Source: Hephaestia sp. MAHUQ-44 (GTDB lineage Bacteria; Pseudomonadota; Alphaproteobacteria; Sphingomonadales; Sphingomonadaceae). Taken from it: 64,000 nucleotides of DNA. The notes under the pieces were generated by a model that ran no database searches, was not told where the DNA came from, and was given only the letters and a program-made list of their open reading frames with translations. The DNA is taken from contig NZ_JAMSLX010000003.1 of NCBI RefSeq assembly GCF_023806085.1, positions 1 through 64,000 on the forward strand, read 5' to 3'. The stretch's first letter is position 1, and each line of letters opens with the position of its first letter. Both the position numbers and the translations under genes were made by a program. Below are positions 24,663-28,682 of the stretch, piece by piece.

Positions 24663-26012
24663 CTAATCGGGCGAAGGTAGACTCAGCATGAAGCGCGCAC
24701 CCTTGCCCGCTGCGCTGTCGAGCGTGATGTCGCCGCCCATGGCACGCGCAAGGCGGCGGGCGATGTAGAGACCGAGCCCGTTGCCGCCGGGCTCGGACGG
24801 ATCGACCCGCTCGAATTTCTCGAACACGCGTGCCTGATCTTCCGGGGCGATGCCCTTGCCGCGATCGGCCACGATCACTTCCGCTAGGCCCTTGCGGTGC
24901 TGCGCGCGCACCGTCACGGTCGAGCCCGGCGGCGCATAGCGCACGGCGTTGCCGATCAGATTGACGAGGATCTGGAGCACCCGCCGGAATTCGCCAATGG
25001 CGGCGATCGCGCCTCCCTCCCCCGGCCGATCGATCGTCACCTCAGCCGCGCTGGCCCGGACCGTGAGCAACCCGGCCGCGCGGCGCGCGAGATCGGCGAG
25101 ATCGATCGCTTCGCTCGCCACCGCGAAATCGGCGCGCTCGACCGCCTCGAGATCGACGAGATCATCGACCAGCCCGAGCAGATGGCGCCCGGCGGTCGCG
25201 ATGTCGGCTGCATAGCCCGCATAGGTTGCATTGACCGACCCATCCGGCGCGGCGCCGATACTGTCGGCATTGGCGATGATCCGCCCGAGCGGTGCCCGCA
25301 AGACGCCCCCAAGCCGAGCAGTGAAGACATCGACCGTCGCCGGTGATGCCGCCGGTTCGAGCGCGACATCGGTCGCGATCCCGGCAAAGCCGCCGAACGC
25401 ACCGAGCCGATCGCGGCGCGGTGATCCGGCGAGGATGACCCGCCGCCCCGATGGCCGCACGGTCGCCTGCTGACCCTCGAAACACTGGTTGACGGCCAAC
25501 GCGGCAAGCAGCGGCAGCGCACCGTCGGGCTGCTCGACCAGACCGAACAAGGCGGTGAGCGGCTGGCCGAGCATGGCAGCGGGATGAAAGCCGTCTCGCG
25601 GCCCGGCATCGGGCGCGAGCGCGATCAGCCGCAACGCGGCATCGGTCTCCCAGCGCCAACCACGCCCGGCGCCAGGCGTGCCAACCCCGCCCGAAACCGT
25701 GTGTGGCAATGCCATGGGGCGTTCGCGCCAGCCCGTCAGCGTCAGCCGAACGCCGCCGTCATCGGGCTCGGCACGGACCCATAGATCGAGATCATGCTCG
25801 CCATCGGCCACCACCGCCCGGCGCGATACGAGCACGCCGAGCCGGCGGACAAGACGCACCGCCGTCGCCAGCGCGGGAATCGCAAGCGGCAGACCGATCG
25901 CGCCGCCCGCCGCCTGGTTGAGTGCCGCCAACCGGCGATCAGCCTCGATCAGCCGGTCGTCGCCATCGATCCGGCCGTACACGGGTGGCAGATCACGATC
26001 TCTCGCATTCAC
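24663..26012 (-). CDS. Histidine-kinase-like protein without phosphoacceptor histidine
   Basis: A 449-residue soluble protein with a helical N-terminus, a central PAS-like region (about 110-225), a DHp-like segment and a complete HATPase domain. In the H-box the expected SHELRTPL reads GGVLRAPL (about residue 237), so the catalytic His is replaced by Gly. The ATP site looks intact: N-box LVNLIGNAVRY, G1 DRGKGI, F-box VFEKFERV and G2 GNGLGLYIARRL. It may phosphorylate another protein's histidine, act as an ATP-gated scaffold, or be inactive. The start is taken as GTG 26012, overlapping the upstream stop (GTGA); TTG 26018 is possible. Last gene of a four-gene operon. Confidence 0.8.
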   Translation of the reverse strand: MNARDRDLPPVYGRIDGDDRLIEADRRLAALNQAAGGAIGLPLAIPALATAVRLVRRLGVLVSRRAVVADGEHDLDLWVRAEPDDGGVRLTLTGWRERPMALPHTVSGGVGTPGAGRGWRWETDAALRLIALAPDAGPRDGFHPAAMLGQPLTALFGLVEQPDGALPLLAALAVNQCFEGQQATVRPSGRRVILAGSPRRDRLGAFGGFAGIATDVALEPAASPATVDVFTARLGGVLRAPLGRIIANADSIGAAPDGSVNATYAGYAADIATAGRHLLGLVDDLVDLEAVERADFAVASEAIDLADLARRAAGLLTVRASAAEVTIDRPGEGGAIAAIGEFRRVLQILVNLIGNAVRYAPPGSTVTVRAQHRKGLAEVIVADRGKGIAPEDQARVFEKFERVDPSEPGGNGLGLYIARRLARAMGGDITLDSAAGKGARFMLSLPSPD

Positions 26013-27109
26013 CGGCAATCGCCCAACGCCGCGCGGGCCTCTCGATAGGCGGCGGGCAATGTCTGATCGGCGAAGGTCGCTCGCGCTGCTACCGGATCGA
26101 GATCGGCGATGGCATCGAGATCGTCGGCCAGGACATCGATCGAGCGGCGCTGGTCAGCCGCGACGAGCGCAAGCCCGACGCGCCCCAGTGCGGCGCGCTC
26201 CATCCCCATCGCGCGCAGCATCAGCCACAGCCGTGCGCTGTCGCGATCAAGCACGGCATCGCGAACCTGATGATAATCGAGCCCGGTTTCTTCGGCGACG
26301 AGCGCGATAAACAACGCGAGCAAGCGATCGCCGATGGCTTCGACCGCGACCTGAGCGCCACCGCGCCGGGCCGATGCCAGCGCCGCGGCAAGCCTGATCG
26401 CGCTCGGCTCCAGGCCCGTGCCTTCATCGTGCGCGGCAAGGCTGCGCTCAGCGGCGGCAATCAGCGCCCGATCGAGCGCCGTCCCCTGCGCATCGGTAAT
26501 CGTGCCCGCCGCATCGCGCAGATCCGCGGCGACGTGCCAGACGAAGCGATGATGCGCCTCTGCCGACAGATCGGTGCTGGCAAGCGCGCCACCGGTCCGC
26601 GGAACGGTGCGGCGGCTGAGCGCCAGCAGCATCGTCATCGCCGGCCCCGCGATCATCGGATCGCGCTCGCTTGCCAGCCGCGGCAGCAGGCTGGGCCGCT
26701 CGGAATCGTCGCGCTCGTGCGACACCAGCGCCTCGGTGAGCAGATCCTGACGCACGCGACCGTCCAACTCGCGCAGCACCACCGGATCGGCGAGCACGAT
26801 CGTGGAAAGACGATGATCATGCCCTCGTTCGGTGCGCAGTATATCGGCCAGCGCCGCCTCTCCGCCAGCGCGCAACATCGGCACCGTCTGGGCAACCAGC
26901 TCCCCCCGGATCGTCCCGATTAGAGACACGAGCAACAGCCCGAATGCCGCCCGCGTGCGATCGTCGAGGCGATCGTCGTCGTGCGCGCGCAACTCCGCCG
27001 CGACGGTCGCGAGGCGACGATGGGTGCGTACACCCCCGTTTTGCGCGCGTCGCAGCAGCGAACGGGCAAAAGGAGGTGATTCCCGGCCAAGATCAGGAAC
27101 GACCGACAT
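26009..27109 (-). CDS. DUF2336-like helical protein
   Basis: A 366-residue Ala/Leu/Arg-rich, all-helical protein (HEAT-like repeats) resembling the DUF2336 family of alphaproteobacteria, whose function is not established. A recurring layout of paired helices is seen, for example SRRTVPRTGGAL and ALFIALVAEETGLDYHQVRDAV. No catalytic motif or membrane segment is visible. ATG 27109 is preferred to a TTG two codons upstream; neither has a clear RBS. Its stop overlaps the kinase-like gene by 4 bases, so the two products are probably made in fixed ratio and may interact. Confidence 0.65.
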   Translation of the reverse strand: MSVVPDLGRESPPFARSLLRRAQNGGVRTHRRLATVAAELRAHDDDRLDDRTRAAFGLLLVSLIGTIRGELVAQTVPMLRAGGEAALADILRTERGHDHRLSTIVLADPVVLRELDGRVRQDLLTEALVSHERDDSERPSLLPRLASERDPMIAGPAMTMLLALSRRTVPRTGGALASTDLSAEAHHRFVWHVAADLRDAAGTITDAQGTALDRALIAAAERSLAAHDEGTGLEPSAIRLAAALASARRGGAQVAVEAIGDRLLALFIALVAEETGLDYHQVRDAVLDRDSARLWLMLRAMGMERAALGRVGLALVAADQRRSIDVLADDLDAIADLDPVAARATFADQTLPAAYREARAALGDCR

Positions 27110-27147
27110 AACCAAAATTTAACGGAATTATGCCGGCAGCGGCACTA

Positions 27148-28320
27148 TCAATCCGCTGTCAGCCGCTCCACGGCGGCGGCCAGCGATGCCAGCGCATAGA
27201 CGCCCGCGACCGTGAGCCCGATCAGCGCATGACCGGCGGCGGTGAAGCCGAGCAGGATCAGCGGATAGACCGCCGGACTCGCCCACCAGATACTGCGCCG
27301 TACCCGCGCGGCGCGTTCGAGCAGTGCCGCCACCGCGACCAGCCCGATCGCCAGCGTCCACCCCGTCGCGGTCATCGCTTCAAGGCTCGCCATCCGCCCG
27401 AGCAGCAGCGCCGACAGCGCGACGACGCCGCCGATGATCCTGCCTTGTGCGGCGGCAAGCCGATCCTCGCCACGCAACGACCCGAGCACAGCGGCGAGCG
27501 CCATCGCGATGATCCCGCCCTCGGCCAGCGCGAGCCCCGTCATCGGCAGGTCGAAAACCAGCGCCGCGAGCCCGGCGAGCGCGACCACCGCCCCCGCGCC
27601 CGCCAGCGCGATGCTGGGTACGGTTTTCGCGACCAGCCGCGGCAGCGTCCAGCGCGCGAGCGGCGCCAGCACGACCCGGTCGAACCAAGCCGGCCGCGCG
27701 GTAACGATCGAGGAGAGCACCGCGCGGCTGCGATCGGCAAGCGCGCGTGAATCCCGCTGGATGCCATGGCCTTCGCGCGCCGCCGACCCCGGCAGCGCGA
27801 TCCGAAGCGTGCGGCCCTGCGCCAGCACACGCAGCAAGGTCGACTGGAAATCGTAATCGCTGGGGAAGCGCGCAACATCGGCGAGTCGCCGTGCCTCGAT
27901 CCGCGCGAGCCCGGCCCAGGCGGTATCGGCATCGACGCGCTCGAATTGGGGGAGTGCATCGCTCTGGCTGACGACGAGCAACGCATCGTCGCCCTCACCC
28001 ACCAGCATGTCGACGATCGCGCCGGTGCTCACCAGCCCGTCGGCAACGACGATGATCCGCGCGAGCGGATGGACCTTCTCGGTCGCCTCGCTCGCCGAGC
28101 GGATGATATCGACCGGAACGCGTCCACCGATCCGGTTGACCGCACCGATCAATTCAGGGGTCAGCCGCGCGACCGCAACGAGGAGTTGCGCGGCCCCGGC
28201 CGCGACCAGCAGCCGCGCCTGATATTCGAGCAGCGTCCCGCCGCCGAACGGCAGCGTCGCGGCAAGCCTATCGGGCCGATCATCGGCATCATCGGTCGCA
28301 AAGATAAGCCCAGCTAGCAT
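27148..28320 (-). CDS. Membrane protein with N-terminal nucleotidyltransferase-like domain
   Basis: A 390-residue protein not recognised with certainty. The first about 190 residues look like a degenerate nucleotidyltransferase (GT-A) fold: LPFGGGTLLEYQARLLVAAG replaces the usual GxGTR loop, and later segments read RIIVVADGLVS and DALLVVSQSDALP. The second half contains about six hydrophobic helices from VAKTVPSIALAGAGAVVALAG onward. I saw no CDP-alcohol phosphatidyltransferase signature, which would explain such a fusion. Start at ATG 28320 (MLAGLIFATDD); a longer reading from 28383 begins in unlikely sequence. It lies between the Hpt-like and DUF2336-like genes on the same strand. Confidence 0.6.
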   Translation of the reverse strand: MLAGLIFATDDADDRPDRLAATLPFGGGTLLEYQARLLVAAGAAQLLVAVARLTPELIGAVNRIGGRVPVDIIRSASEATEKVHPLARIIVVADGLVSTGAIVDMLVGEGDDALLVVSQSDALPQFERVDADTAWAGLARIEARRLADVARFPSDYDFQSTLLRVLAQGRTLRIALPGSAAREGHGIQRDSRALADRSRAVLSSIVTARPAWFDRVVLAPLARWTLPRLVAKTVPSIALAGAGAVVALAGLAALVFDLPMTGLALAEGGIIAMALAAVLGSLRGEDRLAAAQGRIIGGVVALSALLLGRMASLEAMTATGWTLAIGLVAVAALLERAARVRRSIWWASPAVYPLILLGFTAAGHALIGLTVAGVYALASLAAAVERLTAD

Positions 28321-28385
28321 GGTCGATGCTGTTACGGGCTCGGCGCGCGATTGGCAAAGGAAGCGTGGCTTCCCCCACCGCACAA

Positions 28386-28682
28386 TTACAGCCGCGCCAC
28401 CGCTTGCCGAACGCGACGCAGATACGCCGGATCGCGCAGCGCCGTCGTCACGCCTTCATCGGCGAGCGCCATGAGACGTACCGCCCCGAAACTCGCCGCA
28501 AGACCCTTCAGCCGCCACGCCGCGATGCGCCAGCTTTCGGGATCGGCCGCCGATTCGAGCGCGGCAAGCTCGCGCTTGACGCTATCGAGAAAGGCTTCGC
28601 GCAATTCGGCGATCAGCGCGGGCTCGTCCCCCACCGCCGCCGCAAGCGCCGCATCGATTGCTCCGGGATCATAGGCCATCAT
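28386..28682 (-). CDS. Hpt-like protein with Trp replacing the phosphoacceptor His
   Basis: A 98-residue four-helix-type protein with the Hpt pattern FLDSVKRELAALE followed by WRIAAWRLKGLAASFGA. In true histidine phosphotransfer domains this motif is AHxLKGxxxxxG. Here the His position is Trp, so phosphotransfer through this site is impossible. Surrounding residues (LKG, SFGA) are kept, suggesting the fold and a binding surface are conserved. It starts at 28682 (MMAYDPGAID) and heads the operon leading to the DUF2336-like and kinase-like genes. Confidence 0.7.
   Translation of the reverse strand: MMAYDPGAIDAALAAAVGDEPALIAELREAFLDSVKRELAALESAADPESWRIAAWRLKGLAASFGAVRLMALADEGVTTALRDPAYLRRVRQAVARL

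Follow-up and report, generated by a model that had tools for sequence, protein, structure and literature searches.

Single pseudo-histidine kinases and pseudo-Hpt proteins, in which the phosphoacceptor histidine has been replaced, are already known. The Caulobacter protein DivL has tyrosine in place of the histidine, with alanine in Magnetospirillum, and binds phosphorylated DivK (DivK~P), as reported in PMC4211667; the Arabidopsis pseudo-HPt AHP6 is described as a competitor through which phosphotransfer may be impaired (PMC7402358). Among membrane enzymes, the CDP-alcohol phosphotransferase family of the Archaeoglobus proteins IPCT-DIPPS (4mnd) and AF2299 (4o6m) is described as carrying the eight-residue signature D1xxD2G1xxAR...G2xxxD3xxxD4 (PMC4634129). 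Here, a 64,000-nucleotide stretch of Hephaestia sp. MAHUQ-44 (contig NZ_JAMSLX010000003.1, positions 1 to 64,000; hereafter the window) is analysed for a four-gene operon encoding an Hpt-like protein, a membrane protein of predicted 4mnd-type fold, a DUF2336 protein and a histidine-kinase-like protein. Each piece has precedent, whereas the occurrence of a pseudo-kinase, a pseudo-Hpt and an apparent pseudo-CDP-alcohol phosphotransferase within a single operon that many genera conserve appears to be new; a literature search found no paper on such an operon, and none pairing a pseudo-histidine kinase with Sphingomonas, in the library searched. With moderate confidence, the operon is read as a dismantled phosphorelay that has been kept as a membrane-anchored, ATP- or ligand-gated scaffold or sensor (a pseudo-phosphorelay).

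The kinase-like protein scores 96.4 bits against Pfam HATPase_c (cut-off 26.4) and 14.7 bits against HisKA (cut-off 26.9). A first-pass annotation of this DNA had placed glycine at its H-box histidine beside an intact ATP site and tryptophan at the corresponding position of the Hpt-like protein, and both assignments hold, as Gly236 (25305–25307) and Trp56 (28515–28517). Relatives were aligned as 147 kinase rows and 83 Hpt-like rows, in which some genomes occur twice so that rows are not independent. At the H-box histidine column the kinase rows carry R in 38, K in 33, P in 25, A in 16, Q in 14, T and E in 5 each, G in 3, D and N in one each, histidine in 5 and a gap in one, with an entropy of 2.81 bits. 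The glutamate following the H-box histidine, which takes part in autophosphorylation, occurs in none of 146 rows, and the threonine at H+4 is kept in 23 of 147. The ATP-site columns N, N, D, G, G, F, G, G and G are invariant in every row that covers them (139–146 of 147) and the second F-box phenylalanine is found in 143 of 146, so there is little or no variation in the N, G1, F and G2 boxes; of the features that define a class I sensor histidine kinase (HisKA plus HATPase_c), these four boxes are present and the phosphoacceptor histidine is absent. Such invariance would also be expected if the protein were still an enzyme, a GHKL ATPase that phosphorylates a non-histidine residue of a partner, as SpoIIAB and branched-chain dehydrogenase kinase do, or that runs an ATP-driven conformational cycle; this is improbable, as ATP binding alone explains the invariance, no substrate is known, and the glutamate after the histidine position has been lost.

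A midpoint-rooted maximum-likelihood tree of 84 kinase rows (L186 was left out as too short, and the histidine column is among the 401 columns used) separates a His-less clade of 64 from 20 others with a split support of 100/100. Seventeen of the 20 come from other families and three from the window's own (G085, G007 and G056). Because of this split, and because kinases of other families keep SHELRTPL, the sequences place the loss of the histidine in an ancestor and not in the window's genome, and the midpoint-rooted topology suggests that g86, g8 and g57 branched off before it. The five rows with histidine were considered as surviving active kinases and rejected, since they lie inside the His-less clade and none has the following glutamate; they represent three genomes (L007/L140 and L008/L139 are two genomes included twice, the third being L032) and are read as probable chance returns. 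Among 21 further rows that keep the histidine, one (L024) aligned with serine, the same gene read from L193 having histidine, and the kinases of L171 and L179 have SHELRTPLN. Genus g25 (L005, L139, L140) carries a fast-evolving copy of the operon.

The likeness to DivL, as described in PMC4211667, extends to the PAS, DHp and CA domains, the retained N, G1, F and G2 boxes, the lost histidine and a conserved patch adjoining it. DivL proteins, however, mostly have tyrosine at the H-box, whereas the family described here is variable and has tyrosine in none of 168 rows; and DivL acts with DivK, whereas this kinase-like gene is coupled to genes for a DUF2336 protein, a pseudo-Hpt and a membrane pseudo-enzyme.

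A parallel loss is found in the Hpt-like protein, where Trp56 lies in A-A-W-R-L-K-G at the position at which Hpt proteins carry histidine (HxLKG). The window protein scores 22.6 bits against Pfam Hpt (PF01627), under the curated cut-off of 24.6; the profile recognises 31 of 37 relatives at E<=0.01, and the best sequence match in the PDB is LuxU (E 0.21). Its histidine column is occupied by W in 22 rows, L in 19, S in 10, A in 9, M in 7, F in 6 and Q in 5, with N, R, Y and G once each and histidine only in L167, while the columns R-L-x-G-L-A-A-S-F around it are conserved (RLKGLAASFGA in the window). AHP6 is likewise an Hpt-like protein with its histidine replaced (PMC7402358), although by asparagine, found here in a single row, and in a plant, whereas the protein described here is bacterial and shares its operon with a pseudo-kinase. 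Close relatives, to which the first-pass annotation had pointed as the place where retained histidines would tell, carry other residues in 141 of 147 kinase rows and 82 of 83 Hpt-like rows; the loss of histidine stands, but the tryptophan and glycine that it had named are not fixed replacements, both columns being variable.

The membrane protein appears to represent a third loss of catalytic residues. Its AlphaFold2 model (mean predicted local distance difference test score, pLDDT, 91.9) contains the nucleotidyltransferase-like head already proposed by the first-pass annotation, here cytidylyltransferase-like (about residues 1–205), followed by a helical membrane part. The closest solved structures in Foldseek are 4mnd, the bifunctional IPCT-DIPPS (E 1.5e-9), and AF2299 (E 2.4e-7), and the model resembles both over its whole length in VIA-align (4mnd, Z 27.6, 361 aligned residues, root-mean-square deviation 5.9; AF2299, Z 23.3), AF2299 being also recovered weakly by a profile search of PDB sequences (E 0.38). 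The PF01066 fold with its cytidylyltransferase-like head is thus predicted, and the family signature is missing: with reading frames taken from the middle of each tblastn match, DxxDGxxAR occurs in none of 43 rows of a narrower alignment and in one of 62 broader rows (L169 only; a few genomes are included twice). The nucleotidyltransferase motif GxGxR is absent from 43 of 43 and 61 of 62 rows, respectively, and an apparent vestige of the phosphotransferase signature is seen in L087 (PLDGIGER-LA against PLDGVDGK-LA). Judged by model and alignment, the protein is a degenerate cytidylyltransferase-like/CDP-alcohol phosphotransferase, so that the two independent losses first proposed for the operon, both of which stand, understated their number.

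The operon has been retained as a unit in many relatives. A contig scan with the kinase-like protein gave 142 relatives, the best 80 of which form the basis of the following locus counts; the closest is from Hephaestia caeni (79% identity) and most others are named Sphingomonas. The membrane gene is present at 78 of 80 loci, the DUF2336 gene at 78, the Hpt-like gene at 54 and a divergently transcribed coiled-coil gene at 69, some absences being contig ends. The last three operon genes stand in the order membrane, DUF2336, kinase at 77 of 80 loci and all four in order at 54, so that the synteny whose absence elsewhere the first-pass annotation would have counted against its reading is present, and the coiled-coil gene, left out of the first four-gene picture, appears from gene content to be a conserved companion of the operon. 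The four-base overlap reported between the DUF2336 and kinase-like genes is real and recurs in frame at 76 of 78 junctions (ATGA 62, GTGA 12, TTGA 2), which suggests translational coupling. One locus with the operon comes from a record titled Arthrobacter sp. TPD3018 (L088), probably mislabelled, its proteins sharing 97–99% identity with their Sphingomonas aquatilis counterparts (L072).

Beyond these loci, 40 regions from other genera were picked from genomes with matches, so that their counts are not prevalences: the membrane and kinase-like genes occur together in 39, a DUF2336 gene could be identified in 32 and an Hpt-like gene in 26, and the coiled-coil gene gives a tblastn match in 26, although coiled-coil matches may be unspecific. 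Across the order, the membrane-protein profile matches 197 of 296 genomes (17 in other families, weak and partial where placed) and the kinase profile, at E<=1e-60, matches 208 of 296 (12 in other families); counted by genus, these are 49 of 79 and 51 of 79, a few belonging to other families. Among 240 genomes of the class, eight match the membrane profile (E<=1e-6), three near full length, all from the window's family, and five partially.

Purifying selection is evident in the ratio of nonsynonymous to synonymous substitution rates (dN/dS; Nei–Gojobori, computed over nine pairs, or eight in the case of the Hpt-like gene), which is 0.03–0.30 across the four operon genes and 0.01–0.21 in the coiled-coil gene, and no stops were found in the matched stretches of 109 kinase-like and 108 DUF2336 loci. 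An origin as a pseudogene or annotation error was rejected in view of the open frames, low dN/dS, invariant ATP site and synteny, two stop-bearing matches elsewhere notwithstanding. Alignments and models support the conclusion that the catalytic residues of three of the proteins disappeared, in the lineage leading to most sampled Sphingomonadaceae (in the GTDB sense), under purifying selection. The judgement of the first-pass annotation that this is not simple decay is sustained by that selection and by the invariant ATP site; the non-canonical signalling or scaffold role that it attached would follow by inference.

Relatives that keep the histidines indicate what the ancestral cluster may have contained. 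In genus g86, two genomes (L194, L195) whose proteins are 82–97% identical to each other carry a cluster in which the Hpt has its histidine (KAAAHRLKG), the kinase reads SHELRTPLN, and a DUF2336 protein and a membrane-protein relative belonging to PF01066 are encoded as well. The cluster also holds myo-inositol-1-phosphate synthase, a MobA-like nucleotidyltransferase and a Wzi protein, with a second CDP-alcohol phosphotransferase gene on the opposite strand. The membrane-protein relative is matched by the membrane profile over positions 2–388 and by PF01066 at 36 and 34 bits (cut-off 22). Its candidacy as a fully intact enzyme was rejected, for DGVDGKLAR and the next glycine are present and the strict full signature pattern is unmatched; by eye, glutamate stands in for D3 with the spacing reduced by one residue, and D4 is unchanged, so that most of the signature appears to be retained. 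On the Hpt side of these clusters lie a coiled-coil gene (29–30% identity to that of the window), a small protein (45–47%) and RNase J (63%), the same three genes that the window has there, and on the kinase side citrate synthase and glutamyl-tRNA-synthetase-type genes. In a further genome, G112 (L197), these neighbours on either side enclose the reduced four-gene operon in place of the g86 cluster; the kinase-side neighbours of the window are different.

An apparently intermediate arrangement in G007 (L193) comprises a short Hpt-like frame with histidine (AHRLK, without a Pfam match for that frame), a REC protein (1045–2094) whose C-terminal part matches Hpt weakly, a membrane-protein relative in two pieces and FlgK, followed by DUF2336 and a kinase with SHELRTPLN. 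The losses look stepwise, because this locus keeps its histidines yet has the membrane protein in two frames without DxxDGxxAR. Among 16 genomes from other families, 14 contain a relative of the REC protein at E<=1e-50, and relatives there read as two frames separated by stops; in 25 genomes of the window's genus nothing better than 3.7e-9 was found, the other genera of the family not having been searched. Flagellin-family genes precede a DUF2336–kinase pair in L189 and L190, and L189 also has FlgK. The likely history is that a DUF2336–kinase pair next to flagellar genes first gained an Hpt and a phospho-alcohol enzyme as companions and that, step by step, the enzyme then lost its signature, the REC partner dropped out and both histidines were replaced.

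The DUF2336 protein of the window scores 33.8 bits against its Pfam family (PF10098; curated cut-off 34.6), and the profile recognises all 42 aligned relatives at E<=0.01, the best at 2.2e-28. Elsewhere in the order, too, DUF2336 and kinase genes are neighbours with the same orientation, as seen at 14 of 18 loci from other families (L171–L188), with SHELRTPL as the kinase motif; family f8 (L191, L192) has two DUF2336 genes per neighbourhood. The AlphaFold2 model (pLDDT 89.9) gave no Foldseek match at E<=0.001, and the best VIA-align Z of 6.9 may be chance for helical proteins. No paper naming DUF2336 was found in the searched library, and the operon offers a handle on this domain. An oxygen-specific phenotype is reported from CRISPR interference in Zymomonas for ZMO1961–ZMO1962, an uncharacterized protein and a putative kinase (PMC10746277), which might correspond to the DUF2336–kinase pair.

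These observations can be joined in the following proposal. The ancestral cluster would have comprised an Hpt and a kinase, both with histidine, a cytidylyltransferase-like/CDP-alcohol-phosphotransferase membrane enzyme and DUF2336. In its present form the degenerate membrane enzyme would anchor the complex in the inner membrane, coupled translation would deliver DUF2336 and the kinase-like protein as a fixed-ratio pair, and the latter may bind ATP and change shape through its PAS-like part with no phosphate being passed on. The surfaces of the DHp and of the pseudo-Hpt, which are conserved around a phosphoacceptor position that varies freely, would remain as docking sites. A bolder version, put forward only tentatively, is that one family has turned a phosphorelay and a phospho-alcohol enzyme into a phosphate-free machine, in which the ATP-bound state of the kinase is the signal within a membrane-anchored complex, and has maintained it as the family radiated, the histidines and catalytic aspartates being left to drift.

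Several findings weigh against the scaffold or sensor reading. Fifteen of the 69 loci with the divergent gene have no Hpt-like gene (L050–L053, L055–L057, L059, L063–L065, L067, L079, L081 and L102, which have the divergent and membrane genes), a loss that makes the Hpt-like protein an accessory part; the DUF2336 match is missing in 8 of the 40 regions, and in L131, L132, L134 and L136 the membrane and kinase-like genes nearly touch, leaving DUF2336 no space, so a complex cannot require every part everywhere. An adaptor role for DUF2336 is only a guess, as it has no clear structural match, and stop-containing matches exist in the membrane gene of G357 and the kinase-like gene of G137. The Y550H variant of DivL is moreover reported to bind DivK~P as well as the wild type (PMC4211667), so that binding need not depend on the residue itself, which weakens the argument from the freely varying column and leaves receiver binding a strong rival. 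By analogy with DivL and AHP6, the pseudo-kinase and pseudo-Hpt could dock onto the receiver domains, or the active kinases, of a different relay and so compete with it or read its state, and the conserved columns are precisely those around the lost histidine, as these precedents would suggest (PMC4211667, PMC7402358). We nonetheless regard such a decoy or sensor of another relay as less likely than the main reading, given that genomes of the window's genus gave no strong match to the REC protein that accompanies a His-keeping relative, that the pseudo-Hpt has gone in some lineages, and that the CA domain of DivL is described as dispensable (PMC4211667) whereas the ATP site here is invariant.

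The same absences, the two stop-bearing matches, the loss of three sets of catalytic residues and the fact that the g86 companion genes and REC protein are not seen beside the operon would suit a functionless remnant of a lost phosphorelay in slow decay. This is very improbable in light of the low dN/dS, the stop-free matched stretches, the invariant ATP site and the spread of the kinase and membrane proteins over 51 and 49 of 79 genera. The operon and its His-keeping relative beside the same neighbour genes form a before-and-after pair for studying which roles two-component proteins have apart from phosphate transfer.

The layout in the window (Table 1) agrees with the four adjacent minus-strand genes, in position and order, of the first description.

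Table 1. Operon genes and adjoining features, in window positions with forward-strand numbering
Feature	Position	Strand	Basis or remark
Hpt-like protein, 98 amino acids	28386..28682	-	Pfam Hpt E 1.3e-4, below cut-off; Trp56 in place of His
Membrane protein, 390 amino acids, ATG start	27148..28320	-	AlphaFold2, Foldseek, VIA-align
DUF2336 protein, 366 amino acids, ATG start, predicted all helical	26009..27109	-	Pfam DUF2336; AlphaFold2 pLDDT 89.9
Histidine-kinase-like protein, 449 amino acids, GTG start	24663..26012	-	HATPase_c E 1.8e-27; PAS-like part, DHp, intact HATPase
Stop/start overlap GTGA, 4 bases, DUF2336 and kinase-like genes	26009..26012	-	Sequence; same junction type in relatives
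Divergent neighbour, long coiled-coil protein, 771 amino acids	28763..31078	+	Adjoins operon in 69/80 loci

On the kinase side the operon is bordered by an acetyltransferase gene, and behind the coiled-coil gene lie a small protein and then RNase J. Elsewhere in the window's genome, the next-best match to the kinase-like protein has 32% identity, and the flagellin-family genes sit on another contig.

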